IMG/VR virus record: IMGVR_UViG_3300032323_002682
Location: 1 to 30,727 of that record
From: a virus
Direction: 5' to 3' (one strand)
DNA length: 30,727 nucleotides
Shown here: positions 3,842 through 28,005 of the stretch, one piece after another
How positions within the stretch are numbered: the stretch's first letter is position 1
Layout: each line of letters begins with the position of its first letter
Translations under genes and position numbers: made by a program
Notes under the pieces: generated by a model
Told to the model about the DNA's origin: nothing
What the model saw: the letters and a program-made list of their open reading frames with translations, nothing else
Database searches by the model: none

Positions 3842-3847
3842 TATTTA
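3842..3847 (-). promoter_or_regulatory. T4-late-like promoter box TAAATA for the 846-aa fibre
   Basis: The minus strand reads GGTAAATATTTGATAATG; TAAATA ends 7 nt before the ATG at 3834. The match is to the core of the T4 late consensus TATAAATA. At that spacing the transcript would start at or next to the ATG. An AGG overlaps the box and is too far upstream to be a convincing ribosome binding site. Confidence 0.5.
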
Positions 3848-3880
3848 CCTAAAAACCCTATTAACCTTGTGTATTAATTT

Positions 3881-5758
3881 TTATGCTGGAGGCGCAGGAG
3901 CAGGTTCTGTTGCAGCAGGTGCTTCCGAAGCAGGAGCTTCACCTGCTTCTGGTGCAGCAGGTGCTTCTGGTGCAGGTTCTTCACCCCCTCCACCACCAGC
4001 ACCGCCTCCAAATTCTGGAATTTCTGATGAAGAGCCACCACCGCCTCCACCACCAGAAGGTGCGCCCATAGCTTCAGATGCTGCGTTTTCTGCTGCTTCT
4101 ATGTGATCTCTCCAGTTTGGTCCATTATTTTCGATTTTATTAAGTTCCCATCTGAGAGCCGCATCTTTTCTCTTCCATTCCATGTTTTCTCCGATCTTTT
4201 CATCGGAAAAGTCCAGATAATGACGTTGTGCAAAGGTATTGGAAATACCTTCATTGTTACTCATGTCATTGAAATTCTTTTGTTTTAATTCAAACAGATT
4301 TTGTTGTCTGAGAGCAAAGAAGTTGGAAGGTTCTGTGAAGTTAAAATTAAAATAACTCTCGTGTAATTTTAGTTCTTTCCACCATCCTCTGAGCTTAAGA
4401 TGAGTAATGAAAGCGTTCTTAAGACCATCAGAAAAATGTTGTTGAATTCTTACAATAAATTTGGCAAAACGAAGCTCTTCTCTTAACATTTCAGAACCAT
4501 CCTTGAATGGTTCGCTAGGATTAATTCGACTTACAGGTACTTTAAGACTCTTATAGAGCTTATTGACGAAATACATGAGATCTTCAAGCTCTCCGAGATT
4601 TGCACCACCATTCATCATTTCTACATCAGAACCAACTTCTCCGTTTCTTTTGGCAAACCAATAAGAATCAAGCATCGATTGTGGATTGTATTGATTGGCT
4701 GCACTTGGGTTTGAAGCATTGGAATTAAAAGTCTGTTTTGCCCAGTAATTTTGCATGAGTTGCTTGATATATGCTTCTGCCTTTGCAGGAGGCATGTTAC
4801 CAACATCGATTTTGAATTTTAATCTTTCTGGAGCACGAACCAATCTATATATTATGATGGAATCTTCCAGAAGAGATAATTGTTTATAGGCTCTTCTCGA
4901 ATTCTCAATAAAAGGAATGCGAATGGATTGATCTTCATTCCACATACCAGAGTTTATATAGGTGATCTGATTACCTTGAAGTGTAACAATCTGTTGTTGT
5001 AAAGAATTTACAGGACTTATCAAACTTTGATGTTGAGCAAGAGCAGAAGCAGGATCATTTGTCATGCTAATTGGTTTTTGGAACACAAAGTTCTGAATTA
5101 CATTATTCTGAACATTATCATATATCGGATTAATAAGTTCTCCGGGTATGTTTAATACACCAATTATTCCCTTTTCTTTATTTTCATCATGAATAATATT
5201 TTCAAAAAATAATTCACCCTCTACTAATAATTGTCTGCAATAACTCCATCCCTTGTTTTCTAGATCGAAAACATTTATGAACTTATTAAATTCTTTTAAG
5301 ATTTCGTTTCTTACTTCTTCATCCAAACCACAAAAATTTGAATATCTTAAATGAATTACCTTTCCATTTTCATCTTTACTAATAAACTCATCAGAAATTT
5401 CATCCAAACAATCGGAAATTTCTGCATAAGCTGCCATTCTTCTATATTCTGCCAAACGACGAACTTTGTCGGTATCAATATTGGCATAAATGAATCTATG
5501 ATAGGCATGATCCGATACAAATGAACCCGGATTGTAATATTCCCCATATTCATTACGCATGAAAGGTCCGGTAAGAACGGACTGCTGCATAAGACTGAGT
5601 TCTTTCCTTTTGGAAAGTCTATCAAATAATTCATATTTAGAATTACCTACATCTGGAGTGACGGCTCCTGCTATATAGGGAAGTCTCTGTAGAATCTGCG
5701 ATACGAAATTTCTACTAGAATCCGGTATTCTGTTAGATGTGGGTAAAAGGTCAGCCAT
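3881..5758 (-). CDS. 20: Portal vertex protein, T4 gp20-like, 625 aa
   Basis: Forms the dodecameric ring at the special capsid vertex through which DNA is packaged and to which the neck attaches. The identification rests on a long match to T4 gp20: QLSLLEDSIIIYRLVRAPER, then DVGNMPPAKAEAYI, then SYWFAKRNGEVGSDVEMM, then GELEDLMYF, then LKVPVSRI, then REELRFAKFIVRIQ. The N-terminal part (EYRRMAAYAEISDCLDEISD) matches the gp20 region that reads as a helical crown/wing segment. T4 gp20 is 524 aa; here about 70 extra C-terminal residues (about 555-625) are almost only Gly, Ala, Pro, Glu and Ser. ATG at 5758 follows a TAAATA box by 6 nt. Neighbours are not the usual T4 genes 19, 67, 68, 21, 22 and 23, so gene order is rearranged. 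Confidence 0.95.
   Translation of the reverse strand: MADLLPTSNRIPDSSRNFVSQILQRLPYIAGAVTPDVGNSKYELFDRLSKRKELSLMQQSVLTGPFMRNEYGEYYNPGSFVSDHAYHRFIYANIDTDKVRRLAEYRRMAAYAEISDCLDEISDEFISKDENGKVIHLRYSNFCGLDEEVRNEILKEFNKFINVFDLENKGWSYCRQLLVEGELFFENIIHDENKEKGIIGVLNIPGELINPIYDNVQNNVIQNFVFQKPISMTNDPASALAQHQSLISPVNSLQQQIVTLQGNQITYINSGMWNEDQSIRIPFIENSRRAYKQLSLLEDSIIIYRLVRAPERLKFKIDVGNMPPAKAEAYIKQLMQNYWAKQTFNSNASNPSAANQYNPQSMLDSYWFAKRNGEVGSDVEMMNGGANLGELEDLMYFVNKLYKSLKVPVSRINPSEPFKDGSEMLREELRFAKFIVRIQQHFSDGLKNAFITHLKLRGWWKELKLHESYFNFNFTEPSNFFALRQQNLFELKQKNFNDMSNNEGISNTFAQRHYLDFSDEKIGENMEWKRKDAALRWELNKIENNGPNWRDHIEAAENAASEAMGAPSGGGGGGGSSSEIPEFGGGAGGGGGEEPAPEAPAAPEAGEAPASEAPAATEPAPAPPA
3884..4100 (-). repeat. 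Low-complexity Ala/Pro/Gly coding tract in the portal gene
   Basis: The 3' end of the portal gene encodes a seven-Gly run, a second Gly-rich stretch and then repeated EAPA/PEA units. The DNA is GC-richer than its surroundings and full of imperfect ggtgct/gcagga repeats. It creates spurious open frames on the plus strand that are not genes. Confidence 0.85.
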
Positions 5759-5764
5759 GTCTAT

Positions 5765-5770
5765 TATTTA
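5765..5770 (-). promoter_or_regulatory. T4-late-like promoter box TAAATA for the portal gene
   Basis: The minus strand reads GATAAATAATAGACATG, with exactly 6 nt between TAAATA and the ATG at 5758. This predicts a transcript starting at or one base from the start codon. No Shine-Dalgarno sequence is present. Confidence 0.55.
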
Positions 5771-5787
5771 TCTTAAGATATTAACTA

Positions 5788-6594
5788 TCAACTTTCTATT
5801 TTAAGGTTAACAAAGTTCTCTGTCAATATAAATTCTCCAAATTCTGTTATAAAGTCATAATAATTATTGTATTCTACCTGTGTCCAATCGGTAACATAAG
5901 AGTTATTTGCATCTATTACAAAGAAGGGAAGAAATCCATTTACCTCTGATACTTGGGGTATTTGTAGATCTAAAATATTCAAACTCATAAGACCAAAAGA
6001 CCCTTTACTGTTTCTAAGAATAAAGGAAACATTGAATGTTTTGGTATCTGAATTATATGTTAACTTTGGATTTTCTAAAACAAACGAATGTTCACTTTCT
6101 CTCCAGCCTTCGGAATATGTGTAAACTAAGTTTATTTTCTTTAATAAAATTACGGAAACTTTTCCTGTAAAACAATCAAAAGATTTAAAAATTAAATTAA
6201 AATCAAAAGTATTATTTTGTACAAAAATACTAGGTTGTGTATAAAACAATTCTACAAAATATATTTTATTAGCAGTTTCGCTATACCAATAATCTGTTGT
6301 TGTATTTTTTCTTGTATTAAAAAGATTTAATTGATTATATGGTTTTATTTGTGAATTAGTGTCTATGTAAAACTTTTCAAAAATATATCCGCTTTTTGTT
6401 TCTAGAAAAATAACGTCATATATAACATCAAAACGATTTATTTTATTTGATGTTAATTCTGTGAAAAAAGAATTATTAATAGTTTGATATTTTAAATAAA
6501 TTGATGACAATACTTCATGTGCAGGAGATACGTTATCGCTAAGATCTCTTAACCAAAGTTCACCGGGAATTTGTTTGTTATAATAACTGTTCAT
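5788..6594 (-). CDS. Virion-region protein of unknown function, 268 aa
   Basis: I do not recognise this family. The protein is soluble-looking, rich in Asn, Phe, Tyr and beta-prone stretches, with no signal peptide, membrane segment or metal motif. Its N-terminus MNSYYNKQIPGELWLRDLSD is followed by alternating hydrophobic strands. The ATG at 6594 lies 2 nt after the stop of the gene upstream (stop at 6597), with no ribosome binding site and no late box, so translation is probably coupled to it. It sits directly upstream of the portal gene, so a head, neck, tail or baseplate role is plausible by location only. Confidence 0.8.
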   Translation of the reverse strand: MNSYYNKQIPGELWLRDLSDNVSPAHEVLSSIYLKYQTINNSFFTELTSNKINRFDVIYDVIFLETKSGYIFEKFYIDTNSQIKPYNQLNLFNTRKNTTTDYWYSETANKIYFVELFYTQPSIFVQNNTFDFNLIFKSFDCFTGKVSVILLKKINLVYTYSEGWRESEHSFVLENPKLTYNSDTKTFNVSFILRNSKGSFGLMSLNILDLQIPQVSEVNGFLPFFVIDANNSYVTDWTQVEYNNYYDFITEFGEFILTENFVNLKIES

Positions 6595-6596
6595 GA

Positions 6597-7271: not shown

Positions 7272-7277
7272 TAATAA

Positions 7278-7283
7278 TATTTA
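7278..7283 (-). promoter_or_regulatory. T4-late-like promoter box TAAATA for the 224/268-aa gene pair
   Basis: The minus strand reads ATTAAATATTATTAATG; 6 nt separate TAAATA from ATG 7271. The spacing is the same as at the portal gene and the 1888-aa gene. Confidence 0.55.
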
Positions 7284-7309
7284 ATGAAAAAGATTGGTTT
7301 ATCAATATT

Positions 7310-9988
7310 TTAAGAAAATGCCGATCCAGCCATTGTAATCCAATTTGTTGAATCCGATTGAAGCCATGCCCATCTTCCATTGGCAGCAGCCGTTAAAATA
7401 GTATTACCAGCGGCTCCACCAGTAAAAGGAACTACATCGTTACTATTACTGGATATCGTAAAGTTTCCTGTAGCCTTTATGTATAACCATCTGCCAGTAA
7501 ATGTAGATGCGGATGGAAGAATTAAAGTGGATGCAGATGTGCAGATAATACTGTTTGTACTTCTATTGGAAATATCGACTAGTACACCACCAGATGTGAA
7601 TGGCACAAGAGTTTCAAATGGTCCATTTACAGAAACTACACCGTTTAGATTTGTAGTAGAATTTGAATTTCCAAGATTCAAGGAACCTGTTATTGCGCCT
7701 GTATGGATATTTGTAGTAGATGCGCTTGTGGTAGATCCTGTGTTAATATTAACATTAGCAGTTGTGGCAGTAGAACTATTAATGTTGGTTGCACCTGTGA
7801 GTGTTATTGCACTTCCGTTTATATTGGTTGCACCACTATTATTACCTAGTCCAAGAGCAGATGTATTTGTAGCAGTATTGATGTTGGTCGCAGCATTTCC
7901 TGAACCTGTGTTTATATTCACAGCAAAGTTTGTTGTGCTGTTTGCTGTGAATGTTCCATTAACATCTAAAACAGAAGTTGGAGTTGATTTATTAATACCA
8001 ACGAATCCATTAGCCGAAAGGAACATTGTTGTGGAGGGATTGGATAATCCGGGGCCGTTACTATAAAATGCCAAGGATTCGTTTGGTCCGGTTCCGTTCC
8101 CTACACTTATTCTTCCTAAACCCTGAACATAATCTAATATTATACCATCACCACTAACACCTGAGTAATTACTATATATCCATATTCCAGCAGTATTAAT
8201 ATTTCCGGTTGTAGAAATATTATTTACATATGTAAAGTTTGGTTGTGAGGCGGTTAAATTACTACCAATAATAAATGAATTTGCTTGACTGTTCGTTGTA
8301 TTATTTTGTCCACCAATAACGGCAGAATAATTTCCAGAAGCAGTATTACTACTACCTCCTAATACAGAAGAACGACTACCAGAAGCAGTATTGCCAATAC
8401 CACCACCGACTATAGCATAATTTCCAGAAGAATTATTACTACCCCCACCCATGATAGTTGCACCATAATTAGATGCAGTATTGTTTTGACCGCCTCCTAT
8501 GTTTGAACGTGTACCACTAGCAGTATTATTTCTACCACCACCTACAATCGAATTATTTCCAGATGCAGTATTGTTTTGACCACCAGCTACTGTACTATAT
8601 GATCCACTTGCAGTATTGTTAAATCCTATCTGTAATCTTTGTGAACCACTAATAGACCCAACAACTGTGAGAGGGTTATTAGGCAGAAGTGTTCCCATAC
8701 CAACCCAACCCGGACGAGCACTCTGTCCACAAACAATGAAGGCAGGATAACTAGAAACACCCCCCATAAAACTTCCACCATCATAAACTTCCATTACATT
8801 GTTTTCTCCAGTGTTTGATACAAACAATGCAGGAGATTGGTTGGAATTATTCGATAATACGATTTGGGTTGAACTAGTGACAAATACTTGTGTATCTAAG
8901 TATGTGAAATCTCTTAATACTGAAAGATTTCCTGTTATGGTTACATGACCATCAAATAATGATCCTCCGGTTACATGGAAAGCCGAAAGAGGATTTTCGG
9001 TAAAGATACCAGTTCTATTATTTAAGACATTTTTTGATCTATAGTTTGGTCCCACATATGGAGTCAAGGGATTTGGATAAACAGCATTAACTCCCGGATT
9101 TGTAGAAAGAGCAACTGTATTACTTGAAACTACAATACCAATGTTACCACCAAAAGCACTCAAGGCAATGTTTGGAGAGCCTACTGCTATACCAACAGAA
9201 CCACCAAAAGCAGACAATCCACGACTAGGAGAAGATACCGAAGCACCGATATTATTACCCCAAGCAGAAAGAGCTATGTTTCTACTATAAAACTCACCAG
9301 CAACCACACCACCGTTTGCACTAATTGCACTATTAGGGGAAGCAACATCAAGTCCTATACGTCTTCCATAGGCACTAACGGCTCTTACAGTACTATAGAT
9401 ATCAGCACCAATAACGTTACCTAATGCAGAAATTGCTCTGACATCGGAATAAAATTCTCCACCTACAGATCTACCATAAGCACTGATGGCTCTCACAGGA
9501 CTAAAAACATCAACACCAACTTGTCCTCCATAGGCACTAATAGATCTTACTGGACTATAGATATCAGCACCAATGACGTTACCTAATGCAGAAATTGCTC
9601 TGACATCGGAATAAAATTCTCCACCCACAAAACCACCATAAGCACTAACTGCTCTTCTTGATGAACCTACATCCAAACCTACTAAAGGTCCCCAAGCAGA
9701 AAGACCTGTGGAAGTAAAACTATATGCCTCTGCGCCCAAATATCCATTACTATAAAACAATCCACCACGAACACCAGCAAAAGCACATAAAGCAGTGTAA
9801 TCACTATAAAGAAACGCAGCGAATGCACTTGCAGGAGCAGTGGCACTTAATGAACCACTTAAACAAAATTCTCCTAAAAATGGTTGTGGTTGGCTTGCTA
9901 TGGGATCGTGTCCAGCATCAGGATTACTACCATTACCGTAGGTATGGTGATTACGTCTATGCCATTTTGTGTGAAATCTATTGCTCAT
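7310..9988 (-). CDS. Trimeric tail fibre with 18-residue repeats and YadA-like head, 892 aa
   Basis: The N-terminus MSNRFHTKWHRRNHHTYGNG is strongly basic and His-rich. Residues about 90-290 form at least ten tandem 18-residue units of the pattern xxRAISAYGGxVGxxxYS. Residues about 335-370 (NVLNNRTGIFTENPLSAFHV, then VTITGNLSV) resemble phage fibre shaft modules. Residues about 449-586 are YadA-head-like repeats (GGGxNNTASG) ending SFIIGSNLTASQ, then YVNNIS, a junction also found in the 846-aa fibre. Residues about 685-790 are low-complexity TNIN/NTGS/NLGNS repeats, followed by a compact C-terminal domain with TSGGVLVDIS and WAWLQSDSTNWI. Most likely a trimeric host-contact fibre. The only late gene here with a clearly separated promoter (box at 10057-10064). 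Confidence 0.85.
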   Translation of the reverse strand: MSNRFHTKWHRRNHHTYGNGSNPDAGHDPIASQPQPFLGEFCLSGSLSATAPASAFAAFLYSDYTALCAFAGVRGGLFYSNGYLGAEAYSFTSTGLSAWGPLVGLDVGSSRRAVSAYGGFVGGEFYSDVRAISALGNVIGADIYSPVRSISAYGGQVGVDVFSPVRAISAYGRSVGGEFYSDVRAISALGNVIGADIYSTVRAVSAYGRRIGLDVASPNSAISANGGVVAGEFYSRNIALSAWGNNIGASVSSPSRGLSAFGGSVGIAVGSPNIALSAFGGNIGIVVSSNTVALSTNPGVNAVYPNPLTPYVGPNYRSKNVLNNRTGIFTENPLSAFHVTGGSLFDGHVTITGNLSVLRDFTYLDTQVFVTSSTQIVLSNNSNQSPALFVSNTGENNVMEVYDGGSFMGGVSSYPAFIVCGQSARPGWVGMGTLLPNNPLTVVGSISGSQRLQIGFNNTASGSYSTVAGGQNNTASGNNSIVGGGRNNTASGTRSNIGGGQNNTASNYGATIMGGGSNNSSGNYAIVGGGIGNTASGSRSSVLGGSSNTASGNYSAVIGGQNNTTNSQANSFIIGSNLTASQPNFTYVNNISTTGNINTAGIWIYSNYSGVSGDGIILDYVQGLGRISVGNGTGPNESLAFYSNGPGLSNPSTTMFLSANGFVGINKSTPTSVLDVNGTFTANSTTNFAVNINTGSGNAATNINTATNTSALGLGNNSGATNINGSAITLTGATNINSSTATTANVNINTGSTTSASTTNIHTGAITGSLNLGNSNSTTNLNGVVSVNGPFETLVPFTSGGVLVDISNRSTNSIICTSASTLILPSASTFTGRWLYIKATGNFTISSNSNDVVPFTGGAAGNTILTAAANGRWAWLQSDSTNWITMAGSAFS
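8230..8640 (-). repeat. YadA-head-like coding repeats (NNTASG units)
   Basis: About nine units of 42-48 bp encode variants of GGGxNNTASGxxSxV. Plus-strand strings such as gcagtattg and ccaccacc recur at each unit. The equivalent block in the 846-aa fibre is at about 2240-2700. Confidence 0.85.
9120..9665 (-). repeat. 54-bp coding repeats (18-residue SAYGG units)
   Basis: Ten to eleven consecutive 54-bp units encode the 18-residue pattern (P/D)VRAISAYGxxVGxDxxS. A nearly identical 72-bp stretch occurs at 9392-9463 and again at 9554-9625, exactly 162 bp (three units) apart, so part of the array arose by a recent three-unit duplication. Confidence 0.85.
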
Positions 9989-10056
9989 ATTATTCTCAAG
10001 TCTCCAATATTTGGGAACCGTTTATTACTAAAGGTCACTAATCTTGAATATATTAA

Positions 10057-10064
10057 TATTTATA
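10057..10064 (-). promoter_or_regulatory. Full T4-late consensus TATAAATA upstream of the 892-aa fibre
   Basis: The minus strand carries a perfect TATAAATA overlapping the stop codon of the 1888-aa gene. It is 68 nt from the ATG at 9988, so the predicted leader is about 60 nt. Within that leader GGAGA lies 12 nt and GAG 5 nt before the ATG, the nearest thing to a Shine-Dalgarno sequence in the late half. Confidence 0.5.
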
Positions 10065-13000
10065 CTGGAGGTATTACTTTTTCACAACACGATGAAACTG
10101 CTTCGCCCCATTTTTTGGTCGGAGCATAACTTACAGGAAAATTAGCTTCTAATTCTGCATATGTGATTGGATTTATACTACATATTCTCACAAGAGGTAA
10201 TGTTAAGTTATAACAAGACATTGCTTTCCAAGACCAACAAAAATCAGAAGTACAAGTACTGTTATTTCCATCATTTACATTATAATTTGTTATATCGAGG
10301 AAAGTTGTTAAACTAGATACTGCATCATAGAACTTTACTAACTCCTTGTTTATAGTCTGAGGAACATGTAATTCATTTACACCAACACCAACATTTTCCA
10401 ATTCAATGTTTTTATTGAAAGTAGGAAGTTCGTTCCTAGAAATAGGAGCTATAGCAAAGTAAGTGACTACATTTGTGGATGTTTGCTCTGTTGCAAGCAC
10501 CAACTTAGCATTCAATGAATTTCTAAAAGTTTTCATATTCTGTGCAAGTCTTATGAAAGAACGGTTATAGTTTAAATCAGAAGAAAATTCATCTCTACTA
10601 ACCATCAATTGATCTTTAGACCAATATGTTGTGGGAAGACCATCACCCACAGTATATGTTTCTAAAATATCTTGTACCTTGATTATATAAGTGTTTCCAA
10701 AGAATAGAAGTGATCTATTTGAAGTTTGTTTACCACCATTAAAAGTAATATCTGTTGGTAAATTTAGATTAGTTATGTAATATCCATCAACAGAATATTT
10801 GTAAATTGTTGAAGATGTTACTATATAGATAAAATCACCATTTTCATCAAAAATTATTTTGTTTATATCTATAGGCGATACTATCTGGTTTAAAGTAAAT
10901 GATGAAAGGAATTCGTTGGATCTTTCCTCAAATATATAAACAGTATTTGATTCACATAATATGTATACATAATTGAAATGAGGATGAACTGCAATATTAA
11001 CAGGTCTATCCGTATTAAATGTATCTATATAATATGTGAATCTCCATGCCAAATCAGAATTAAATTCTTTTACACAACGATTATTGTAATCTAATACATA
11101 TATAATATTGTTAATATACACAATTTCAGAAGGAGAATTAAATTTATTTGTATCATCTTTAGATCCCAAACCACCACAAGTAAGTGATGGATTTATATCT
11201 GGTAATGTTTTATATAAATCTATCTCATATCTGAAAACTCTATTATTTGGTGGATCACAAATAAACATCATAGTTTCATTATTATCTACTTCTATTGATA
11301 TTGGATTTATAAGAGTATTACCAAGATCAGAAAGACCCACAAGATCTATTTCAATTGGAATTTTTCCAGCAGAGAATGCTCTTAAGTTTTTTCCATCTAA
11401 AACAAATATATGATTTTTTGTTTCTTTCACATCTCTTAAATTTGAGAAATAAGATGTTCCTTGAGAAACTGCAAAATTTGGAAACGGATAATAGTTGGGA
11501 TAAAAACTTTCAGTATGCCATTTAATTCCATCTGCCAATTCGAGTGTATTGCTACCTAACCAACCAAAATACACAGTCGGAGAATTTGTATTTAATGTTT
11601 TTAAATTATTTGATAGATAATCTATACATTCCTGTATTCTTGTGATTGATGTATTAAATATATCCGCATCACCAAATTCGTTAGGTTGTATTTCGATTTC
11701 AGTTTGAGTATATGGAATAGTGAGCTTTGCATTCTCTACTTTTCTAAGAGTATTCGGATCATATGTGTTCCAAGTGTTTGATACTATTATGGGAACACTG
11801 TTTTGGAAAACAGCAATTGTGTTATCAGTAAATACAGCACTATAATTTATATAATATGTTCCGGGTGTTGAGTATTGATACTTTAAAACCTCATCAAATG
11901 CACAGACTTTAGTAGATTCTTCAAAGTCTTCACCGAAATCTACAATATAAGCTGCTATATTATAATTATCCAAAATATAAGGTGTCTCAAATTCAACAAA
12001 AATATTATTTCCTGTTAATGTATAAACAGTTGAAATAAAGACTTGCGGAATAACTCCTGTTAAATTTGCATATATTGTTCTTGTTGGTGTAATAATATAA
12101 TTGTTAACAGGATTCCAAAGATCTTTGTTGGGATAGTTGGGATAATCTACAAAAGTAGATGCTGGTATTTGTGTTATTATCTGAGCACTTGCTCCTATTG
12201 TTAAAACATTATTAACAATTTTACTAACAGTAAGCGGAAGTGCTGCATCGCCCACACTTAAATTAAACAAATCAAATGTTCCATTTACTGCTGGTACTGT
12301 TGTTTTTGCAGTCCAATATTCTGTTGATAATGTATAAACAACAGTACCACCTATTGGTTGCACTGGCGATTCAAATGTACTTGTAGATATTGTTTGTGTT
12401 ATAGATATAGTGGTTTGTTTATCTAAAGTCAAAGAACTATTAACAGTTGTAAATGTAAATGTAGGGTTTCCGTAAGGAATTGTTCTGGGAGAACGATAAA
12501 AAGTTTTACTATTTATTAAGGAAGTATTGAATGGTATTGTTTTTGATGTTATGTAAAAAGGTAATTCCATTAATTCATTATCAACAGGAGCAATATAATA
12601 AATTCCATTGCGTTTTGGATATGATGTATTGTTAAAAGCTGATAATGAAATTTGCAAACCAGAAAAGGAAGAAAGATCAGAATAATAAGGAATATCTACC
12701 AGTTGTAAGAAAGAACTTACTGAAGTTAAATTAGTATAACTACTACCAAAACGATAATCGTACTGATCAAACATTGATTTATTTGAAGAAAGATAAAATG
12801 TTTGACTATTTGATTTTTTATTTTGATATGCAGTAGGAGCAAGTGCTAATGTATAATTTGAAGTATTTGCCAATGTTGCTTTTCTTCCATTATTCCAAAA
12901 ATATTCAGGATATACAACAATATCAAGTGGTTTGGTAAATTCTTGATAATCGAATATATAAAACTTTACAGAACTTTGTGTATTATGAGCACTAACCCAA

Positions 13001-15726
13001 CCCGGCGGGATTGCTTCCACAGAAGATAACGTAATGGTTGTTACAGAGGGATTTGATAATATGTATCTTAATTCAAGACCAGATAAAGCAGTTACTAATG
13101 GATAAAACGTAGAATTTACAGCCCAAAGTAAATTTGTTTTGTAAGCAGCACCAGAAATATCTTTATATGGTGTTAAAGTATAATCATTATATGGAAGATT
13201 AGGTCTAGTAATAACAGGTTCAAAATCTGTTCTTGTAGAAGCTAATGGAGTATCTTTATATTTTGTGTAATAAGTATAAAAATCTGCATTAAAAATTTTA
13301 GGTGAAGGAAAATCATCTACCTGAAAATCATATCTACCTTGTAATAAACCTTTGGGAGTATCGATATTAGCAATGAAAGAAACATTATGTATTGCTGGTG
13401 AAGTTTCAGCATAGTCTGGGATAAGCTTAACACTGATTGTGCTTATCGTTTGTGCTCTTGATGTTTGTCCGAATGGATAATATTCGGAAAATACATCATA
13501 TGCACTTATTGGAAGCTCTGTATATAATGAATTAAAATCATATGTCCATGTCCAGTTCACCAATGTGTTTAAGGGTAGATCATACACTCTTCCTTTATAC
13601 GGAACCGAAACGTCAAAAGCTATTGTTCTGACATAATTACGATTTTCTAATTTAACTTTAGGTATAACTAAAACTTTATTTTCTACAAAATAATCAAACA
13701 ATGAAGGAACCGTAGACAAAGAAGCTGTTTCATTATATTTCTGTGAAGATAATGTTATTACAGTTGCTACAGGACCATATCCTGAAAGAACCACAGATGC
13801 TGTATTTAGTCCCCAAAGTATAGGTGTATTTTGCGTAATAGGTTGTATATAATTTCCACTTAAATCAACGGAATACATCCCCAATGATGGACTTAAAGGA
13901 GAAGCAGACCAAGTTATGTATGAATTTGTTAAATCTCTTGTAGGCCATGAAGATACTGAATTCAAAAATGAAGAATCAACTTCCATGTAATCAGCATATT
14001 CTTCTGTTTTTGTTATAAAAATGTTTTGTCCGGGATTATAAGGTAAAAGGGTTGGTGCTAAAGTTATTTGTGTTGATGTGAACGCATCGAGTTGTCCTGC
14101 CAGCGAAGATAAAGAAGGTCTTAAAACAAAAGAAATTTCTCCATTTGTTGTTACTGGATAAGAAATTAAAAAGTTAACTGCAGAAGATGCAGGTATCCAA
14201 GTAGGAGATGCTAGATTATATGGAATATTTAAATTTTTTCCATAATAACAACATAATGAATTGAAAATAGTTGGCGTATTGGTCAACGCATTAAATTTAA
14301 TAAAATCTGATGGCATGTTTATATCAGAATAATCATAACCAATTATATTAAAGTTTGATCCTAAATAATTGTGCAATGTAACGGATGTTACAATTCCTGA
14401 ATTTGTATATGTTGCCGAGAGTGTGGAAGCACAGAGAGAGAATGTAAGATCTGCTGTTTCTCTTGAGGACAAAGCATGATTTACAGTTGCTTTAAAGCCG
14501 TAATAATGTGGTGGATATTTCGTTTTCCATGTAACATTAGTAGCACCTGTAGGAACACCCAGATTTGCATTAGTTAGCTGCATGAATGTGGATTCCCATG
14601 TTTCATTGGATAGAGCAAATGTTGGACAATCAGCAATATAACTAAACCCTATGAAAGTATTTGGAATACCTGTCGTGTTGTTAACTATAGTAAGATTAGG
14701 AGTTTGATAAAAGTTACTATAATATTTTATATTTGTATTATTTAAATTTGCTACACTACTTAAAATACAATATCTAGCATCACTCAAAAAGTTATTTGTG
14801 TTGTCTTGTTTTAATTGAACAAGTTGAAAAGTTTGAATGTTATCTACAGTATTTTGAACAAGAATATAACTGCTTGTAAAACTTTTTTGTGTTTGAATTA
14901 CTGTATCTGGTCTTCTCTGCGCCAAAACAAGATAATTTATTCTTGTACCATCATTAAAATAATAAGCATTATTGAATGAAACGAAAGTAGAATATGGTCT
15001 TAATTTACAGGAAGGAAGCAAGTACGGTGCTTGTTCGAGTATTGTTGAAGTATAATAAGGATTTTGGTTATTAGTAAAAGATACTATGGGAACTTCTACT
15101 CTGGTTCTAGATGCACATAGATTATATGTTATAGTAGAACTAGATACTACATAATTTTCTCTCTCAGGAGGATATTGTAAATATCTATACAATTCGTTTA
15201 CGGAAGGCACGGCAGGTGCGCCTGTTGTAGAATAGAAAAAACTTTTGGCTTTTGTTATTTTTGTTGTTGTATTAAAACTCCATCCAGAGGCACTATAAGT
15301 AGGTTTTGTGGTGGGTTCTAATAACAATCTTCTTGGTAAGAATAAATAAGAATAATAAACTTTTCCTTCAGGAGCAAGCCCAAATTTTGCAGAATTTGTA
15401 CTTGGTGTTGAATCAATATAAAAACTGTTTACAGTATATCCAATGTCATTTTTTATTCTATCAGAACTTATATTCCATTTAAAGGTTGTGGTATTTGTAG
15501 TTCCAATTATAGCCAAACCACCATCAGTAATAAAGGGACTACAATCAATGTATGAAAAATCTGCTAAACTGGTTGTTTCGTTGGTTGGATTTTCAAGATA
15601 TCTAAAATAATTTGCAGCAGGAAACGGACCGTTATTAGGATTAACAATGTTAGCACATAATGCGATAGAATATGTTTCATTAGGCCATTCACCTTCTTGA
15701 GATATGTAAAACGCAGATAATGACAT
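10060..15726 (-). CDS. Giant virion protein with PKD-like domain and NHL-like propeller, 1888 aa
   Basis: Very long beta-rich protein, high in Ser, Thr, Asn and Tyr, with no signal peptide or membrane segment. The first 1200 residues look like a chain of Ig-like sandwich domains with recurring short strands, but I recognise no named family. At about 1240-1310 a PKD-like domain shows VDFGEDFEE and then YQYSTPGTYYINYSAVFTDN. At about 1400-1690 there is an NHL/SMP-30-like propeller: NPISIEVDNNETMMFICDPP, NNRVFRYE, SPSEIVYINNIIYVLDYNNR, and NIAVHPHFNYVYILCESN. The C-terminus (about 1840-1888) contains several Cys, including CSINP and SSCCEKV. ATG at 15726 follows a TAAATA box by 6 nt. Probably a tail or baseplate-associated adhesin or spike; this is inference from size, composition and location. 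Confidence 0.8.
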   Translation of the reverse strand: MSLSAFYISQEGEWPNETYSIALCANIVNPNNGPFPAANYFRYLENPTNETTSLADFSYIDCSPFITDGGLAIIGTTNTTTFKWNISSDRIKNDIGYTVNSFYIDSTPSTNSAKFGLAPEGKVYYSYLFLPRRLLLEPTTKPTYSASGWSFNTTTKITKAKSFFYSTTGAPAVPSVNELYRYLQYPPERENYVVSSSTITYNLCASRTRVEVPIVSFTNNQNPYYTSTILEQAPYLLPSCKLRPYSTFVSFNNAYYFNDGTRINYLVLAQRRPDTVIQTQKSFTSSYILVQNTVDNIQTFQLVQLKQDNTNNFLSDARYCILSSVANLNNTNIKYYSNFYQTPNLTIVNNTTGIPNTFIGFSYIADCPTFALSNETWESTFMQLTNANLGVPTGATNVTWKTKYPPHYYGFKATVNHALSSRETADLTFSLCASTLSATYTNSGIVTSVTLHNYLGSNFNIIGYDYSDINMPSDFIKFNALTNTPTIFNSLCCYYGKNLNIPYNLASPTWIPASSAVNFLISYPVTTNGEISFVLRPSLSSLAGQLDAFTSTQITLAPTLLPYNPGQNIFITKTEEYADYMEVDSSFLNSVSSWPTRDLTNSYITWSASPLSPSLGMYSVDLSGNYIQPITQNTPILWGLNTASVVLSGYGPVATVITLSSQKYNETASLSTVPSLFDYFVENKVLVIPKVKLENRNYVRTIAFDVSVPYKGRVYDLPLNTLVNWTWTYDFNSLYTELPISAYDVFSEYYPFGQTSRAQTISTISVKLIPDYAETSPAIHNVSFIANIDTPKGLLQGRYDFQVDDFPSPKIFNADFYTYYTKYKDTPLASTRTDFEPVITRPNLPYNDYTLTPYKDISGAAYKTNLLWAVNSTFYPLVTALSGLELRYILSNPSVTTITLSSVEAIPPGWVSAHNTQSSVKFYIFDYQEFTKPLDIVVYPEYFWNNGRKATLANTSNYTLALAPTAYQNKKSNSQTFYLSSNKSMFDQYDYRFGSSYTNLTSVSSFLQLVDIPYYSDLSSFSGLQISLSAFNNTSYPKRNGIYYIAPVDNELMELPFYITSKTIPFNTSLINSKTFYRSPRTIPYGNPTFTFTTVNSSLTLDKQTTISITQTISTSTFESPVQPIGGTVVYTLSTEYWTAKTTVPAVNGTFDLFNLSVGDAALPLTVSKIVNNVLTIGASAQIITQIPASTFVDYPNYPNKDLWNPVNNYIITPTRTIYANLTGVIPQVFISTVYTLTGNNIFVEFETPYILDNYNIAAYIVDFGEDFEESTKVCAFDEVLKYQYSTPGTYYINYSAVFTDNTIAVFQNSVPIIVSNTWNTYDPNTLRKVENAKLTIPYTQTEIEIQPNEFGDADIFNTSITRIQECIDYLSNNLKTLNTNSPTVYFGWLGSNTLELADGIKWHTESFYPNYYPFPNFAVSQGTSYFSNLRDVKETKNHIFVLDGKNLRAFSAGKIPIEIDLVGLSDLGNTLINPISIEVDNNETMMFICDPPNNRVFRYEIDLYKTLPDINPSLTCGGLGSKDDTNKFNSPSEIVYINNIIYVLDYNNRCVKEFNSDLAWRFTYYIDTFNTDRPVNIAVHPHFNYVYILCESNTVYIFEERSNEFLSSFTLNQIVSPIDINKIIFDENGDFIYIVTSSTIYKYSVDGYYITNLNLPTDITFNGGKQTSNRSLLFFGNTYIIKVQDILETYTVGDGLPTTYWSKDQLMVSRDEFSSDLNYNRSFIRLAQNMKTFRNSLNAKLVLATEQTSTNVVTYFAIAPISRNELPTFNKNIELENVGVGVNELHVPQTINKELVKFYDAVSSLTTFLDITNYNVNDGNNSTCTSDFCWSWKAMSCYNLTLPLVRICSINPITYAELEANFPVSYAPTKKWGEAVSSCCEKVIPPV

Positions 15727-15732
15727 TTGTAA

Positions 15733-15738
15733 TATTTA
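15733..15738 (-). promoter_or_regulatory. T4-late-like promoter box TAAATA for the 1888-aa gene
   Basis: The minus strand reads CTAAATATTACAAATG with 6 nt between the box and ATG 15726. No ribosome binding site is visible between them. Confidence 0.55.
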
Positions 15739-15781
15739 GATTAAAATTCTTATTTATCTACAAACAAAGAGACAAATCGTT

Positions 15782-15952
15782 TTAATTATTATTTTGATCT
15801 TCAATAATTTCTTCTATTAATGTTATTTTCTCAACATTGTTATCTGCACTTGTTGTTACAGGGCAATTTGTAATCGCACCCGTAGCTATTGGAAAAGATC
15901 CTATATCAACAGTATTGTTTTTTGTATATTTTGTTAAAATTTCGATAGACAT
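15782..15952 (-). CDS. Small protein of unknown function, 56 aa
   Basis: The frame runs from ATG 15952 to TAA 15782 and encodes a product beginning MSIEILTKYTKNN and ending in an acidic, Asn-rich tail (LIEEIIEDQNNN). It starts 5 nt after the stop of the 1549-aa gene and has no late box of its own, so it is likely the second cistron of that unit. The family is not recognised; a single Cys-Pro (NCPV) is present. It fills most of the gap between the two giant genes, which supports it being real. Confidence 0.65.
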   Translation of the reverse strand: MSIEILTKYTKNNTVDIGSFPIATGAITNCPVTTSADNNVEKITLIEEIIEDQNNN

Positions 15953-15957
15953 ACTTT

Positions 15958-18900
15958 TTAATTTTCTCTTATATTAGGTAATTGAATTGGAGGATTAAAT
16001 TCAAAAACATGTTGTGATGAATTACTATATACTATTTGATCTACAGAAACACCAGCAATGCCACATCCTTGAGAAGATGCACTCAAACCTCCCAGATTAA
16101 CGGAATAAACTGTTGGTATATCTTCAACAGTTCCATTTGTTTTAAATAAACCATAATTATTTCCAAATATATCAATTTTCCATTCGGTCATCACTCCTTT
16201 ATCTACTAAAAGTTCTTTTTTACGATTCTCATACGAGGATGCTAAAAGTTCTTTTCTGAATGTTACGGGATATTTTTCCGGACTATCCCATACACTAGGA
16301 TATATCGGATCCCAAAAAGCAAAATCATCATTTTGTCTACATAATCCCAATGTATTCTTCTTGGTTATTTCATATTTGGATTGATATGGTGTATACTTTT
16401 GATTGTTTAAAGTATCAACAATTGTTCCTGCAATTGTTGATGTGCTATATGATTTATACATCCACCTATTATCAACATAATCAACAACTACGGGTGAATA
16501 CTGATCTTTTTTTGTAAGACCTCTGTTTCTTGATCCGTATTTTTCTACATTTAGAAACATTCTTTCCGCACTAATACTATCTATAAATGTTAATGTGTCA
16601 CCATTAACATTAATCTCATAACCTCTTCCACGATAATTAGAAACTCCTAATTTTTCTGGTAATAAATATTCACCTGTTTGTTTATCGCTGACTGTTAATG
16701 AAACCAATGATGCGTTTGCAACTGTTGGATAATGAACATTAACTAAATTTAAATATGGTTCTGTTGCTTTTATGGCTACTGCTGTGTTAAATTGCACAAA
16801 AGTATTAGAACATCTGTTTTGAAAATACAAATCTTCAGTATATGTTAGAGGATTTCTGGCGAAATAATTGTATTTATTTGGTGTAAATAATGAATAACTT
16901 TCTAAAGTAATAGTACTAGGTTCGTGTGAACTATATGCAATAAAGTCGGAAACATTTCCTATTCTGAATAAATCATTTAAATTAGAAACACCCTCATAGA
17001 ATATTATTTTATTCCATTGATAACTAGAAATAGAAACATCAAACGTGAGTGGTTGATTCCATATTAAGTTTGTATTTTTCTTTCTTTGATATTGAAGAAA
17101 ATTTCCATTCTCTAACACCATTGGTGATACTGTAGGTTGATGTATCGGAAGATAATCATCTATAAACCTAACCTGACCACCATAAGACATATGACCTTTA
17201 TAGAATTTATTATTTAAATTAGGATCAGGAATATTGTTGCTTATTGCCCAGAAAGGTTTGGCTCCAAATGAACGACCGATCCATTCTGAAGAATACGTGC
17301 TGGTGGAATAATCCCAACCATTTAATTTTGAATTAAATGCAAATGAAATGGAGGGCAATGAAAATGATGTGATAGCATCATATCCAACAAAATTTGCCAC
17401 AGATCTATGAACATACACCAAATAATCACCGGGATAAAAATTCATATCACTGATTTCATATGTCTCTTTCCAATTTCCATCTGATCCTCTTATTGCTTTA
17501 TACCATGTTGGATAAACAGCATTACAACTGAAATATGAAGCAAGTCTTTGGATAAAACTATTCACATCTCCATCGCTTAATGTTAAATATTTTTCTAAGT
17601 TAAAATAACTATTTGGTGATGCTATCTGCTGCATCACATCTGTAAAGTAAGAATTAGTTCCGACCGAAACCGGAATTATTTCTACTCCTTGTTGTTTTAA
17701 TCTGTCTGCTTCTGGTAAAGCTTTTCCAATATCTAATGTTTCATAACCATCACTAAACAGCATTATAGTTTTTACAGCGTTTTCTTGAGGAAAATTTGTA
17801 TTTGTAGAACGAGATCCTTCTGCTTCTATAATTGCATTCAAGTCAGAACACAACCCATAAAAATTTCTTGTTTTAGATTTTTTACTATTAGTTCCTACTT
17901 CTTGTGTTAAAAGTGATTCTGATATTTGAAAAGCTCCGTATATATCTGTTAATGAATCAGCAGCTAAATTTGTTGGAACGGAATCTATTGCAAAATTTAA
18001 TATTGTAAGATCGGAAGTTAAATAAGTTTTTATGGTTGTGTTTTTATCAAAATATACTATTGAAATTTGTACTTCAGGGTTTGCTATTTTGTTAATTAAT
18101 CCCTTTATAACTTTAATTGTAGTTTCTATAAAAGTTTTTTCAGAACCACTAGCATCAATTAATATTATTATATCACGAGATTTACAAGGATTGAATCTTG
18201 CTTGTAAATTTTTATAAGCATATGTTATTATTATATATGGTGTGACTCCAACATTATCTGTGCGAAGTGGTGTTCTATAATATGTATATCTTCTCCCGGT
18301 TTTTAGTATCATAGGTGTGCCAGTTCCTGTCTGCCACTTTCCACTTCCAAAACCAACACCAACATCACCTTCAACACCATCTAAACGATAATATGAAAAT
18401 TGAGGACTTGTTAGTGGTCCAAAACCACGTGTATCTTTCCATGTATTTAATGCAAAGTCAGAACCCAAACCTTGAGGATCGGCAAACAAATAATCTGCCA
18501 TCGAATTAAATTGTGTCAAGTTTGAACCCGAATGTCCTATTGGTGAATAATGAACAGATTTACATCTACATTGTTTCCAAGGATATAAGTTGTCTATTAT
18601 TGGATTTGGATTTTGGTAATCTTGATCAGTATAATAATCTTTTGATCCACCTTTATTATACGGACAATCAACAGAATGTTTTCTATAAAAAATAACTTCA
18701 TCTGCTGGTGTGTCTTCATCCATCCAAACAAAGGAAACAAACCCAGAATCTATTTTTGTTGATAATCCTGCTTGAATATTTCCATTTAAATACTCCGCAC
18801 ATTGTACTGCAGAAGTATCATATACATTTAAAGTAGATTGTATGTCTAATTCTTGAATAGACCCAGAACCAAGCCATGCAGCTTCTGTAGGTTCTGATGT

Positions 18901-20607
18901 TCTGGAATTCAATCTATAAATTATATCAGAATCACTAAGATCTGATCCAGCAACAGCACCCAACATATCACTAGAAACGGAAAGTTCTGAGAGAGCTACA
19001 GGAAGGCAAGTATCTTCTAAAACAGTTATTGGAATATTATCAGAAGGAGAAAAATTGTCGATAGGCCAATATATGTAATTAGCTCCTATGGATATGGGAA
19101 TATCGGTAGAAGATAGTGCAAATAAGAAAGCTTGTTGTATCTCTCCTGATAAAGCATCACTATAAACATTATTTAATTGTTGATTATTTTGTTTTTTTGA
19201 TATTATATCTGAATTTTCTGAAGAAGACCCTGCATGTGCTCCATCATAAACAAGTGTTGTGTTATTGATATATATTGGTAAAGATGCGGAATTTGGAAGT
19301 GTTGTTGTGTAATAATCTTTTAATATTTCTACTTTCTGTGCTTCTGTTAATTTTTGATAAACCAAATAATCAGAATCATCTATACTATGTGTTTCAAATG
19401 AAGTACCTTTAAAGGAAAGATTGAATCCGGGGTATGGGTATAAAAATTCTCTATATTCACCAGCATTTATAGTGAGTCTCATATTTCCTTGTGAATTTTC
19501 TACACGAGGACCCATCAACCATGCACCTTCTACAATTCCAGCTTGATCGGTGAATATAAGATCAGAATTTGTATAATCATCACCACCAGTAGCACTACAT
19601 TTTACAAAATTAGAACTATTAATATCAATGGGATCATATATATTATTAAATATAGAATCATTTAAAACTCTATCACCACTAGGCCAATAGAACCAATTGT
19701 TTCCGGTTTGGAATGGTAAGGAAAAAACATAATCAGGGGTATCGGTCTCGCTTAATCGAACAGCTGTTAACCCGTATACAGTTTCACCCAAATATTTTTG
19801 GGATGCTGCTATTTGATTATAAATTGTTTGATATGATGTAGAAGAAAGTGCTGCCGTTGAAAGGGTTGGCACTTCCATGAGATATTGATTAAATAAACGA
19901 GAAAGCGGTGTATCTGCAACTCTAGAAAGAAATCTACTAGAAAGTATACCAATCAAGTCTTCTTCAGATATATTTTCAAATGGAATATCATTAAGAACCT
20001 GAGAAATATCCACATAATCAGTAATTGGAACAGATGGATCCGAATCATGGTATGATTGAGAATCATGCAATTCTTCCAATTCTATGAAAAAGTTACCATT
20101 TACAGAAGAAAGGGCGGGAAAAAATTGAGTAAGAGAAGAGATTGGTATTTGTGTTATATTGTTTTCTTTTGTGGTAAACCCGTTTAAAATATATTGATAG
20201 AGTAAAGTTTCTAATCCATTATTAGAACCTATCAAGTTATATCTTAATTTTGCGTTTTTTACCGATTCTCTCTTATAAGATAATATCTTAGATACTTCCT
20301 TAAGTTTTTTTACAAAATACGGAATGGCTATTGTTATTTCTTCATCATTAGTATAATCTAACTGCGATAGAAACAAATCCTTCTCATCTTTATTAAAAAG
20401 AAAACTCAAATCTTTTAATAATTGAATATAGTCTTGTTTTATCTGATTTGATACTGTTGTGGAAGATGATGCTATTTTATTCACAGCATACCACTCTTTT
20501 AAGTATTGGGTATATAATTGCACTGAAATATCAGGCGTAAGTGTTGTCTGATATTTTAACCAAGTCGGATAACTCAATGGAGAGCTTGTATTAATCGGTG
20601 CGGACAT
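15958..20607 (-). CDS. Giant virion protein with von Willebrand A domain, 1549 aa
   Basis: The frame is open 20 codons further upstream (to 20667), but that start overlaps the previous gene; ATG 20607 (MSAPINTSSPLSYP) is preferred. The N-terminal 150 residues are helical (YTQYLKEWYAV, then FVKKLKEVSKILSYKRESV) and resemble an assembly or oligomerisation region. A vWA domain spans about 808-1010: strand IIILID, MIDAS motif DASGS at D818-S822, a Thr in SLTDIYGAF, and Asp953 in LFSDGYE. The rest is beta-rich with many Trp/Tyr. All three metal-site motifs look intact, so Mg-dependent protein binding is plausible. A baseplate or tail role is inferred from the neighbours; I cannot assign a T4 counterpart. 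Confidence 0.82.
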   Translation of the reverse strand: MSAPINTSSPLSYPTWLKYQTTLTPDISVQLYTQYLKEWYAVNKIASSSTTVSNQIKQDYIQLLKDLSFLFNKDEKDLFLSQLDYTNDEEITIAIPYFVKKLKEVSKILSYKRESVKNAKLRYNLIGSNNGLETLLYQYILNGFTTKENNITQIPISSLTQFFPALSSVNGNFFIELEELHDSQSYHDSDPSVPITDYVDISQVLNDIPFENISEEDLIGILSSRFLSRVADTPLSRLFNQYLMEVPTLSTAALSSTSYQTIYNQIAASQKYLGETVYGLTAVRLSETDTPDYVFSLPFQTGNNWFYWPSGDRVLNDSIFNNIYDPIDINSSNFVKCSATGGDDYTNSDLIFTDQAGIVEGAWLMGPRVENSQGNMRLTINAGEYREFLYPYPGFNLSFKGTSFETHSIDDSDYLVYQKLTEAQKVEILKDYYTTTLPNSASLPIYINNTTLVYDGAHAGSSSENSDIISKKQNNQQLNNVYSDALSGEIQQAFLFALSSTDIPISIGANYIYWPIDNFSPSDNIPITVLEDTCLPVALSELSVSSDMLGAVAGSDLSDSDIIYRLNSRTSEPTEAAWLGSGSIQELDIQSTLNVYDTSAVQCAEYLNGNIQAGLSTKIDSGFVSFVWMDEDTPADEVIFYRKHSVDCPYNKGGSKDYYTDQDYQNPNPIIDNLYPWKQCRCKSVHYSPIGHSGSNLTQFNSMADYLFADPQGLGSDFALNTWKDTRGFGPLTSPQFSYYRLDGVEGDVGVGFGSGKWQTGTGTPMILKTGRRYTYYRTPLRTDNVGVTPYIIITYAYKNLQARFNPCKSRDIIILIDASGSEKTFIETTIKVIKGLINKIANPEVQISIVYFDKNTTIKTYLTSDLTILNFAIDSVPTNLAADSLTDIYGAFQISESLLTQEVGTNSKKSKTRNFYGLCSDLNAIIEAEGSRSTNTNFPQENAVKTIMLFSDGYETLDIGKALPEADRLKQQGVEIIPVSVGTNSYFTDVMQQIASPNSYFNLEKYLTLSDGDVNSFIQRLASYFSCNAVYPTWYKAIRGSDGNWKETYEISDMNFYPGDYLVYVHRSVANFVGYDAITSFSLPSISFAFNSKLNGWDYSTSTYSSEWIGRSFGAKPFWAISNNIPDPNLNNKFYKGHMSYGGQVRFIDDYLPIHQPTVSPMVLENGNFLQYQRKKNTNLIWNQPLTFDVSISSYQWNKIIFYEGVSNLNDLFRIGNVSDFIAYSSHEPSTITLESYSLFTPNKYNYFARNPLTYTEDLYFQNRCSNTFVQFNTAVAIKATEPYLNLVNVHYPTVANASLVSLTVSDKQTGEYLLPEKLGVSNYRGRGYEINVNGDTLTFIDSISAERMFLNVEKYGSRNRGLTKKDQYSPVVVDYVDNRWMYKSYSTSTIAGTIVDTLNNQKYTPYQSKYEITKKNTLGLCRQNDDFAFWDPIYPSVWDSPEKYPVTFRKELLASSYENRKKELLVDKGVMTEWKIDIFGNNYGLFKTNGTVEDIPTVYSVNLGGLSASSQGCGIAGVSVDQIVYSNSSQHVFEFNPPIQLPNIREN

Positions 20608-20618
20608 TGTATTATTAA

Positions 20619-20624
20619 TATTTA
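20619..20624 (-). promoter_or_regulatory. Possible late box TAAATA for the vWA gene
   Basis: The minus strand reads ATTAAATATTAATAATACAATG; the box is 11 nt from ATG 20607, the longest spacing among the close late boxes, giving a predicted leader of only a few nt. It favours ATG 20607 over the longer open frame, which starts upstream of the box. Confidence 0.45.
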
Positions 20625-20648
20625 ATCTAAAAATGCAGCTTTCTAACT

Positions 20649-21365
20649 TTAAATAGGATAAACACAACTTCCATCATTTATATATGCATTTGGATTATAA
20701 TTTAATGCGTTTGGATCCATACACCCATAAACGTTTTGACTACATAATAAAGGAACTTCAAAAGTGTTTGTAGCTGGACATGCATTATATACTAATCTAC
20801 CAATTCCATCTTCTATATAAACCCAAGGAACATTGTTGTGACATTCACCAAACCCCCAATATTGTGTTCTAACATTTGGTGGAATAGCACATATGAGTTG
20901 TAAAGTCATAGATTCACTGCTATTACTAAGATTTAATCTAGGATATACATCAGAAGTTATTAAAAGTGTAGTGCTTCTATCTCCTCCATCACTCTGATTA
21001 TTTAAATCAATAAGTCCTATGTTAATGTTATTAACAAGAAGATAAAATATAGCAGCATTACAACGATGTCTTTGAGGACAAGGACCTAATGTATTGCTAA
21101 ATTTTACCGATATTTGCATTCCTACTATAAAACAATCAAAATATTCACACGAACCATCATCTATGTTTGCTTTTGGATCAAAATTCGTTGCTTTAGGATC
21201 CATACATCCATATATTATTTTTTCTTCGATTAATTCATATTTTCTCTTTTCTTCTTTAACACTAACATTACATTTAATCGGAGATTCGGTTGAAATTAAA
21301 AAATCTCCAGTAATCAAAGATTCTCCGCTTTGATAACTTGTTATATTTTCAATATTATTTGACAT
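20649..21365 (-). CDS. Virion-region protein with two GCMDP-type repeats, 238 aa
   Basis: Two copies of a 24-26-residue motif are present: YGCMDPKATNFDPKANIDDG plus SC at residues 52-75, and YGCMDPNALNYNPNAYINDG plus SC at 213-238, the second ending the protein. This GCxDPxAxNYxPxAxxDDGSC pattern recurs in secreted bacterial proteins and in marine phage virion proteins; it is rich in Asp and paired Cys, suggesting a small Ca-binding or disulphide-bonded knot. The middle (76-212) is a Cys-containing beta domain with GPCPQRHRC, QYWGFGECHNNVPWVYIED and NACPATN. ATG 21365 follows a TAAATA box by 8 nt. Likely an exposed virion component; function inferred. Confidence 0.8.
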   Translation of the reverse strand: MSNNIENITSYQSGESLITGDFLISTESPIKCNVSVKEEKRKYELIEEKIIYGCMDPKATNFDPKANIDDGSCEYFDCFIVGMQISVKFSNTLGPCPQRHRCNAAIFYLLVNNINIGLIDLNNQSDGGDRSTTLLITSDVYPRLNLSNSSESMTLQLICAIPPNVRTQYWGFGECHNNVPWVYIEDGIGRLVYNACPATNTFEVPLLCSQNVYGCMDPNALNYNPNAYINDGSCVYPI

Positions 21366-21373
21366 TCTTAATA

Positions 21374-21379
21374 TATTTA
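21374..21379 (-). promoter_or_regulatory. T4-late-like promoter box TAAATA for the GCMDP-repeat gene
   Basis: The minus strand reads CCTAAATATATTAAGAATG; 8 nt separate the box from ATG 21365. Confidence 0.5.
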
Positions 21380-21387
21380 GGTTTAAA

Positions 21388-21870
21388 TTACCACTTACCT
21401 ATAGGACACACAGAAGTATCTAATCTGAGCTTTGCTTGGGTTGAACAACCACATTTTTCACACTTTCCTGTATTAGCAAACGCAGAAGAATCCCAAAACT
21501 CACAAGACTCACATATTTTTAATCTCTCATTAAACATTTTTCTAGTAGCCACAGGCATACCTTCAAGTCCCCATTCTACAAGACTTTCAGTAAAACTTTT
21601 TGCTTTTTGTAACAAAGAAGGAGGTTTTGGTTCTTTTTCTATTTTAGGAGGATTCTCCAAAGATGAATTGACATATTTTAACCAAATGTCACACACAAAA
21701 GATTTGATTTCTTCGTCAGTTTTAATTTTATTACTCCAATATTTTAATAGATTATCGGGAGTTATCTTCTTGAATCCCTTGTCTATCCACCTCTGACGGT
21801 TTTTAGGTCTTAACTGTAATGTAACAAAATACATTATAATTCTTAATTGTTTGTCTGTTATATCACACAT
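21388..21870 (-). CDS. Phage protein with C-terminal zinc ribbon, 160 aa
   Basis: The N-terminal half is helical (KNRQRWIDKGFKKITPDNLL, then LLKYWSNKIKTDEEI). A Pro/Lys linker near residues 72-85 leads to a C-terminal zinc-ribbon region: ICESCEFW, then GKCEKCGCS, then TSVCPIGKW. The Cys spacing and the closing CPxGKW are familiar from small zinc-binding proteins beside structural genes in T4-like phages. The substrate is unknown. This is the first gene of the minus-strand half; a TAAATA box lies 9 nt before ATG 21870. Confidence 0.8.
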   Translation of the reverse strand: MCDITDKQLRIIMYFVTLQLRPKNRQRWIDKGFKKITPDNLLKYWSNKIKTDEEIKSFVCDIWLKYVNSSLENPPKIEKEPKPPSLLQKAKSFTESLVEWGLEGMPVATRKMFNERLKICESCEFWDSSAFANTGKCEKCGCSTQAKLRLDTSVCPIGKW

Positions 21871-21879
21871 ATCTTTATC

Positions 21880-21885
21880 TATTTA
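21880..21885 (-). promoter_or_regulatory. T4-late-like promoter box TAAATA for the zinc-ribbon gene
   Basis: The minus strand reads ATTAAATAGATAAAGATATG; the box ends 9 nt before ATG 21870. It lies in the 60-bp divergent region shared with the first plus-strand gene. Confidence 0.45.
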
Positions 21886-27991: not shown

Positions 27992-28005
27992 ATGTAAATA
28001 TTAGT

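Follow-up and report, generated by a model that had tools for sequence, protein, structure and literature searches.

Probable T4-type late promoters placed on the start codons of a lineage of T4-superfamily phages

The window considered here is a whole virus record (IMG/VR IMGVR_UViG_3300032323_002682; 30,727 bases, 67% A+T), and it raises the question of why the hexamer TAAATA, the core of the late promoter of phage T4, should stand immediately before the start codons of its late genes. Late transcription in T4 is a textbook system, normally coupled to translation led by a Shine-Dalgarno (SD) sequence through a leader of ~20 nucleotides (nt). The explanation favoured here, to which we give a probability of roughly 0.82 as a whole, is that the T4-type late promoter has been moved onto the start codons in a lineage of the T4 superfamily. 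TAA(A/G)TA would be the -10-like box of this promoter and would be recognised by a gp55-family sigma factor acting with the host RNA polymerase, probably with activation by a phage sliding clamp. As in T4, the first transcribed base would lie 6 nt past the box, i.e., 0 to ~12 nt before the start codon, and the ribosome would initiate on a leaderless or ultra-short-leader mRNA end. A start at or just before the ATG would leave no room for an SD in the late mRNAs, and the early sigma70-type promoters would be placed likewise relative to their own start codons.

Eight transcription-unit heads on the minus strand of the window were considered, and at seven of these TAAATA ends 6–11 nt 5' of the ATG, exactly at the sites, distances and start codons that an earlier note had listed. 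The boxes are found at 3842–3847 (7 nt from ATG 3834 of an 846-amino-acid (aa) protein, 1294–3834), 5765–5770 (6 nt from ATG 5758), 7278–7283 (6 nt from ATG 7271, 224 aa), 15733–15738 (6 nt from ATG 15726; 1888 aa, 10060–15726), 20619–20624 (11 nt from ATG 20607; 1549 aa, 15958–20607), 21374–21379 (8 nt from ATG 21365, 238 aa) and 21880–21885 (9 nt from ATG 21870; 160 aa, with a weak match to DUF6171). The gene that starts at 5758 (3881–5758, minus strand) encodes a T4-type portal protein, gp20, of 625 aa (Pfam Portal_T4, E 3e-96; phrog_213, E 4e-98). The same note had held chance to be unlikely. When the eight upstream regions were shuffled 300 times with their dinucleotide content preserved, even the most successful hexamer, whichever 6-nt range was taken, stood before only 4 of the 8 heads, against the 7 observed. 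The window as a whole holds 57 TAAATA sites where 71.6 are expected, i.e., the hexamer is not over-represented, and it is therefore its position alone that is special.

The wider comparison relies on relatives gathered through the portal (15 loci) and through gp55 (80 loci kept of 237), from which 14 records were read whole; one of them, G004, is 99.995% identical to G002, hence the same phage, and was left out. With the window included, the clade comprises 11 records (G000–G003, G005–G010 and G014), next to a sister record, G011, and two outgroups, G012 and G013. T4 and the cyanophage S-MbCM7 served as named references, to which the genes owe their names by homology. The nearest relatives of the window are uncultured phages, and the phage collection holds no record at least 60% identical to the window portal and none covering 80% of it, while scans of genome contigs for a host turned up no relative. 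In the gp43 and gp20 trees G011 joins the clade with support of 100/100; long branches meet in both trees, which show the deepest split within the clade as an open node, and the branching order of G011 followed by the clade is not proven. Genes were called by a script of our own which made no use of the box, in an earlier and a later version that differ in gene models and counts. Some called starts are wrong, those of the window portal and of several gp23 genes among them, and such miscalls lower the counts of boxes at late heads rather than raise them.

A ranking of all hexamers 5–11 nt before any ATG in six records, made independently of the gene calls, places TAAGTA first (55 occurrences against 12.8 expected) and TAAATA second (158 against 90.4), the latter also coming top among the 15 permutations of its own letters. 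The box of the clade is thus TAA(A/G)TA, or TAARTA. When heads were named by homology across the 11 records, TAARTA was found 4–18 nt upstream of 50 of the 66 late heads and of none of the 49 early heads (Fisher p 9e-19), and the inclusion of tightly packed genes gave 58/91 late against 0/81 early; in control windows at 19–33 nt and at 34–48 nt, the box occurs at 4 of the 66 late heads each. The distance of the nearest box from the start codon, counted at every head of the clade including those without a name, is 0–4 nt at 9 heads, 5 nt at 42 and 6 nt at 62, followed by 25, 25, 22, 18, 22, 17, 11, 8, 6, 8 and 4 heads at 7 to 17 nt and by none at 18–19 nt. This sharp rise at 5 nt, with the maximum at 6 and the last boxes at 17, is the positional peak that the earlier note had looked for in a wider set of late genes, and its hard lower edge is to be expected if transcripts begin ~6 nt past the box.

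As a rule, either almost all members of a conserved gene cluster have the box or almost none do (for example 9/9, 7/7 and 6/6 on the one side, 0/7 and 0/6 on the other). For the genes of the window, TAARTA lies 9–17 nt upstream of the portal orthologues in the other nine of the ten clade portal records, at 6 nt in 6/7 orthologues of the 7271 gene, at 6–12 nt in 7/7 of the 15726 gene, and in 5/7 of the 20607 gene; the sole other orthologue of the 21365 gene, with its start as called, has no box. Genes internal to late operons do without it, such as gp6 (box in 0/7), the window gene at 5788–6594 (minus strand), whose orthologues also lack it (6/6), and the window gene that starts at 15952. On the plus strand, TATAAATA occupies 21917–21924, 6 nt from ATG 21931 of a 65-aa open reading frame (ORF; 21931–22128) that diverges from the 21870 promoter, and an orthologue of this ORF, G002_208, has its box at 10 nt. 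The only late head of the window without TAARTA belongs to an 892-aa protein (7310–9988, minus strand), which by eye has CAAATA ~20 nt and GGAG 13 nt before its ATG, given which this head is possibly SD-led. Around the gp55 genes, where 29 near loci (of 47) and 17 far loci (of 31) were left once near-duplicates had been removed, the late-box signal is weak because gp55 neighbourhoods are early regions.

The likeness to T4 lies in the TAAATA core, an AT-rich segment downstream of it, the restriction to late and structural genes, a gp55 homologue and a clamp-like protein. The clade differs in carrying its box 5–17 nt from the ATG, in contrast to ~23–28 nt in T4, and in having no SD, and further in accepting either A or G as the fourth base of the core, in not requiring the 5' TA, and in having no recognised gp33. 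In T4 itself, distances from TATAAATA to the ATG peak at 23–28 nt, and a check of 31 late genes found 15 boxes before 14 of them, most at 23–39 nt; in S-MbCM7 the corresponding distances form a weak cluster near 35–38 nt. The available passages describe CTAAATA for the late promoters of Aeromonas phage Aeh1 (PMC1524935) and NATAAATA for that of cyanophage S-PM2 (PMC2984593), which, like the clade, join a TAAATA core to a variant 5' end; unlike the clade, neither phage is credited in these passages with late promoters on start codons.

The T4 late box spans positions -13 to -6, as given in a passage of PMC1524935, and for this reason a distance of 5 nt would put the A of the ATG at +1, whereas a distance of 17 nt would give a leader of 12 nt. 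If the start site is as in T4, the late leaders of the clade would measure 0–12 nt, and 155 of the 272 boxes, at 5–8 nt, predict leaders of 0–3 nt. The sequence evidence thus supports the claim, already advanced in the earlier note, that the late class is leaderless, in the refined form of leaderless or nearly so and with the capsid gene as an SD-led exception. In the clade as a whole, SDs are near background (in G002, for example, 18/233 genes against 21/233 in the control window), while they precede 56/137 genes (41%) in G011 and 43–44% of genes in the outgroups (125/290 in G012 and 101/229 in G013), where the same box stands mostly 20–43 nt upstream. The exception, gp23, encodes the major capsid protein, and no other widely conserved cluster has a strong SD: once its starts are corrected by the conserved N-terminus, the copies of gp23 in G001, G002, G003, G006, G007, G008 and G009 carry AGGAG in 6 of 7 cases and AGGAA in the seventh, no more than ~12 nt from the ATG, with no close box in any of the 7, and start 38–85 nt after the preceding gene. 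Given that gp23 keeps a conserved SD, the host ribosomes probably have a usable anti-SD.

The early genes also look leaderless. Of the 514 heads that lack a close box, 69 have a TTGAC whose first base lies 32–41 nt before the ATG, where a shifted window gives 6. In the 99 nt nearest the ATG of these heads TTGAC occurs 106 times, and 63 of these occurrences (summed by hand) fall within a peak at 34–38 nt; among the named heads it is present at 8/49 early (0/49 in the control) and at 1/66 late. As TTGAC sits 34–38 nt before the early ATG, both promoter classes would end at the start codon, which bears out the suspicion raised before that the two types had been shifted together. A -10-like element within ~10 nt of the start codon, one of the marks by which leaderless genes are recognised, is found in late and early genes alike. 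In the window, an early promoter of the form TTGACA-N17-TAGAAT (26964–26992, plus strand) ends 9 nt before ATG 27002 of an RNA ligase gene. This 29-nt early promoter, TTGACACCTCCTCCTAAAGCATATAGAAT, is repeated, spacer included, in 23 copies with at most 4 differences, 16 of them identical, over five records (outside the window, 7 in G001 and 5 each in G003, G007 and G009), and 20 of the 23 end 6–9 nt before an ATG.

With regard to the late-transcription machinery, a search for gp55, gp45 and gp33, which the earlier note had proposed, had a mixed outcome. A gp55 homologue is present in 7 of the 11 clade records, the other four being fragments, among them the window, which holds no sigma gene. 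Of the solved structures, T4 gp55 comes nearest to this homologue (E 2e-8), and the sigma-2 core is conserved. For gp45, a sequence search of the clade gave no match, and a candidate clamp could be traced by predicted fold only: a conserved protein of 249–252 aa, encoded close to gp32 in 6 of the 11 records, is predicted to adopt a PCNA-like sliding-clamp fold, with the PCNA of African swine fever virus as its best Foldseek match (E 5.7e-10; mean predicted local distance difference test score, pLDDT, of 63 for the predicted structure). Two other candidates for the clamp were set aside, namely the tandem genes of ~250 aa between gp46 and gp47, which by eye, with no search made, resemble genes of glycosyltransferase type, and a gene of 433–438 aa between gp46 and gp43, which is glycosyltransferase-like (phrog_7162).

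Several observations weigh against the favoured explanation. The gp55 of the clade lacks the C-terminal clamp-binding motif of T4, as does that of S-MbCM7, and gp33 was not found in the clade by hidden Markov model (HMM) or profile-profile search, the latter covering 111 clusters of at least 3 records, while it is recognised in G012 and G013. A candidate for gp33 by synteny, G008_152 (98 aa, between the gene at the position of T4 rnh and gp32), is unsupported, belonging to a two-record cluster below this cut that was not itself compared. Since gp45 has no match in sequence, gp33 is unrecognised and the clamp motif of gp55 is missing, we infer rather than observe that gp55 reads TAARTA and that a clamp activates it. 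The match to the T4 late consensus claimed in the earlier note holds for the core and fails for the first two bases, as the 5' TA is not conserved ahead of it. Sixteen of the 66 late heads have no box at 4–18 nt, seven being gp23 and one the window portal with its miscalled start. About 43% of the boxes predict leaders of 4–12 nt rather than of zero, all of these lengths being calculated from the T4 start-site spacing, and G009 shows a modest excess of SDs (18/172 against 5/172 in the control). G011 mixes both modes, with SD-like bases at 0/10 genes whose box lies at 4–9 nt, 0/3 at 10–14 nt and 14/17 at 15–30 nt, an opposition that is partly geometric because box and SD compete for the same bases.

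One further observation, the weak enrichment of TTG 27–28 nt upstream of the box end (72/366 against ~28 expected), would fit better if TAARTA were instead a -10 variant for a vegetative or alternative sigma factor of the host, with gp55 uninvolved. The triplet is most frequent in the portal promoters of the clade, where by eye it stands at this spacing in 9 of 10 (e.g., window 5765–5797, minus strand), as well as in loci L008 and L011, and in these promoters it may be a possible -35-like element. Most late promoters have no TTG at the -35 position, for which reason a full -35 element for all of them was rejected, and the T4 late promoters themselves have no conserved -35 according to the passage in PMC2988020. 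Given also that in these phages TTGAC promoters, without TAARTA, precede the named early genes, and that gp55 is missing only from fragments, a host sigma factor is an improbable reader of the box.

No more credible is the reading of TAARTA as a signal for the initiation of translation, an A/U-rich substitute for the SD as in SD-poor bacteria, on an mRNA that starts further upstream. The lack of SDs in the clade and the A-rich bases just before the ATG, inside operons too, agree with such a signal. It would nevertheless have to be missing from all 81 early genes and, within late operons, from internal genes such as gp6, and its distances would be expected to follow a two-sided optimum instead of a hard lower limit with a long tail; moreover, the SD-using outgroups carry the same box further upstream. 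Chance is very unlikely indeed, whether through the base composition of AT-rich DNA, in which TAAATA is a simple hexamer, or through start codons miscalled near AT-rich stretches, in view of the shuffles, the rank of TAAATA, first of its permutations and second of all hexamers, and the contrast between late and early genes. This contrast, the shape of the distances and the shuffle test led to the rejection of both the translation signal and chance, and the T4-type late promoter remains the best explanation.

Leaderless genes are familiar from other systems. In the passages available, Deinococcus-Thermus and Actinobacteria have leaderless genes with a -10 motif beside the ORF (PMC3160421; PMC12340547), which, as in the clade, is -10-like, stands only a few nt from the start codon and is accompanied by no SD; there the element is the -10 of a host sigma factor, whereas the clade would imply a phage late sigma factor beside sigma70-type early promoters. 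Leaderless phage mRNAs as such are already known, and phage transcripts are described as often leaderless in a passage of PMC5312081. No description of leaderless T4-type late genes was found in the literature searched, by titles and the openings of abstracts and with most subscription journals outside the search. Among phages, the Thermus phage phiYS40 reportedly produces leaderless transcripts, the phage and its promoters being unrelated to the clade.

Other features of these genomes may be recorded here. Directly 3' of the RNA ligase gene of the window lies an ORF resembling a LAGLIDADG homing endonuclease (27988–28863, plus strand). In G008, about ten genes between gp46 and gp47 (141870–151068) read by eye as sugar or glycosyltransferase functions, and the relatives G008 and G007 carry transfer-messenger RNA (tmRNA) genes (Rfam RF00023; L170, 5194–5653, and L158, 14708–15159, both minus strand) together with many tRNAs.

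A tentative extension, which we consider rather doubtful as it stands, is that the whole lineage is leaderless for both promoter classes and has kept the SD on the capsid gene, that the translation of the capsid and that of all other genes could be set separately through the state of the initiation factors or ribosomes, and that G011 is a surviving intermediate. A lineage without leaders on its late and early genes would mean that in a large lytic phage promoter position and translation mode can change jointly throughout the genome, and as both modes occur in G011, the order of these events becomes testable. For the host, it would point to ribosomes that are good at leaderless initiation and probably still able to use the SD of the capsid gene. 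Finally, for uncultured phages of this kind, the box offers a practical rule by which late genes and correct start codons may be recognised.

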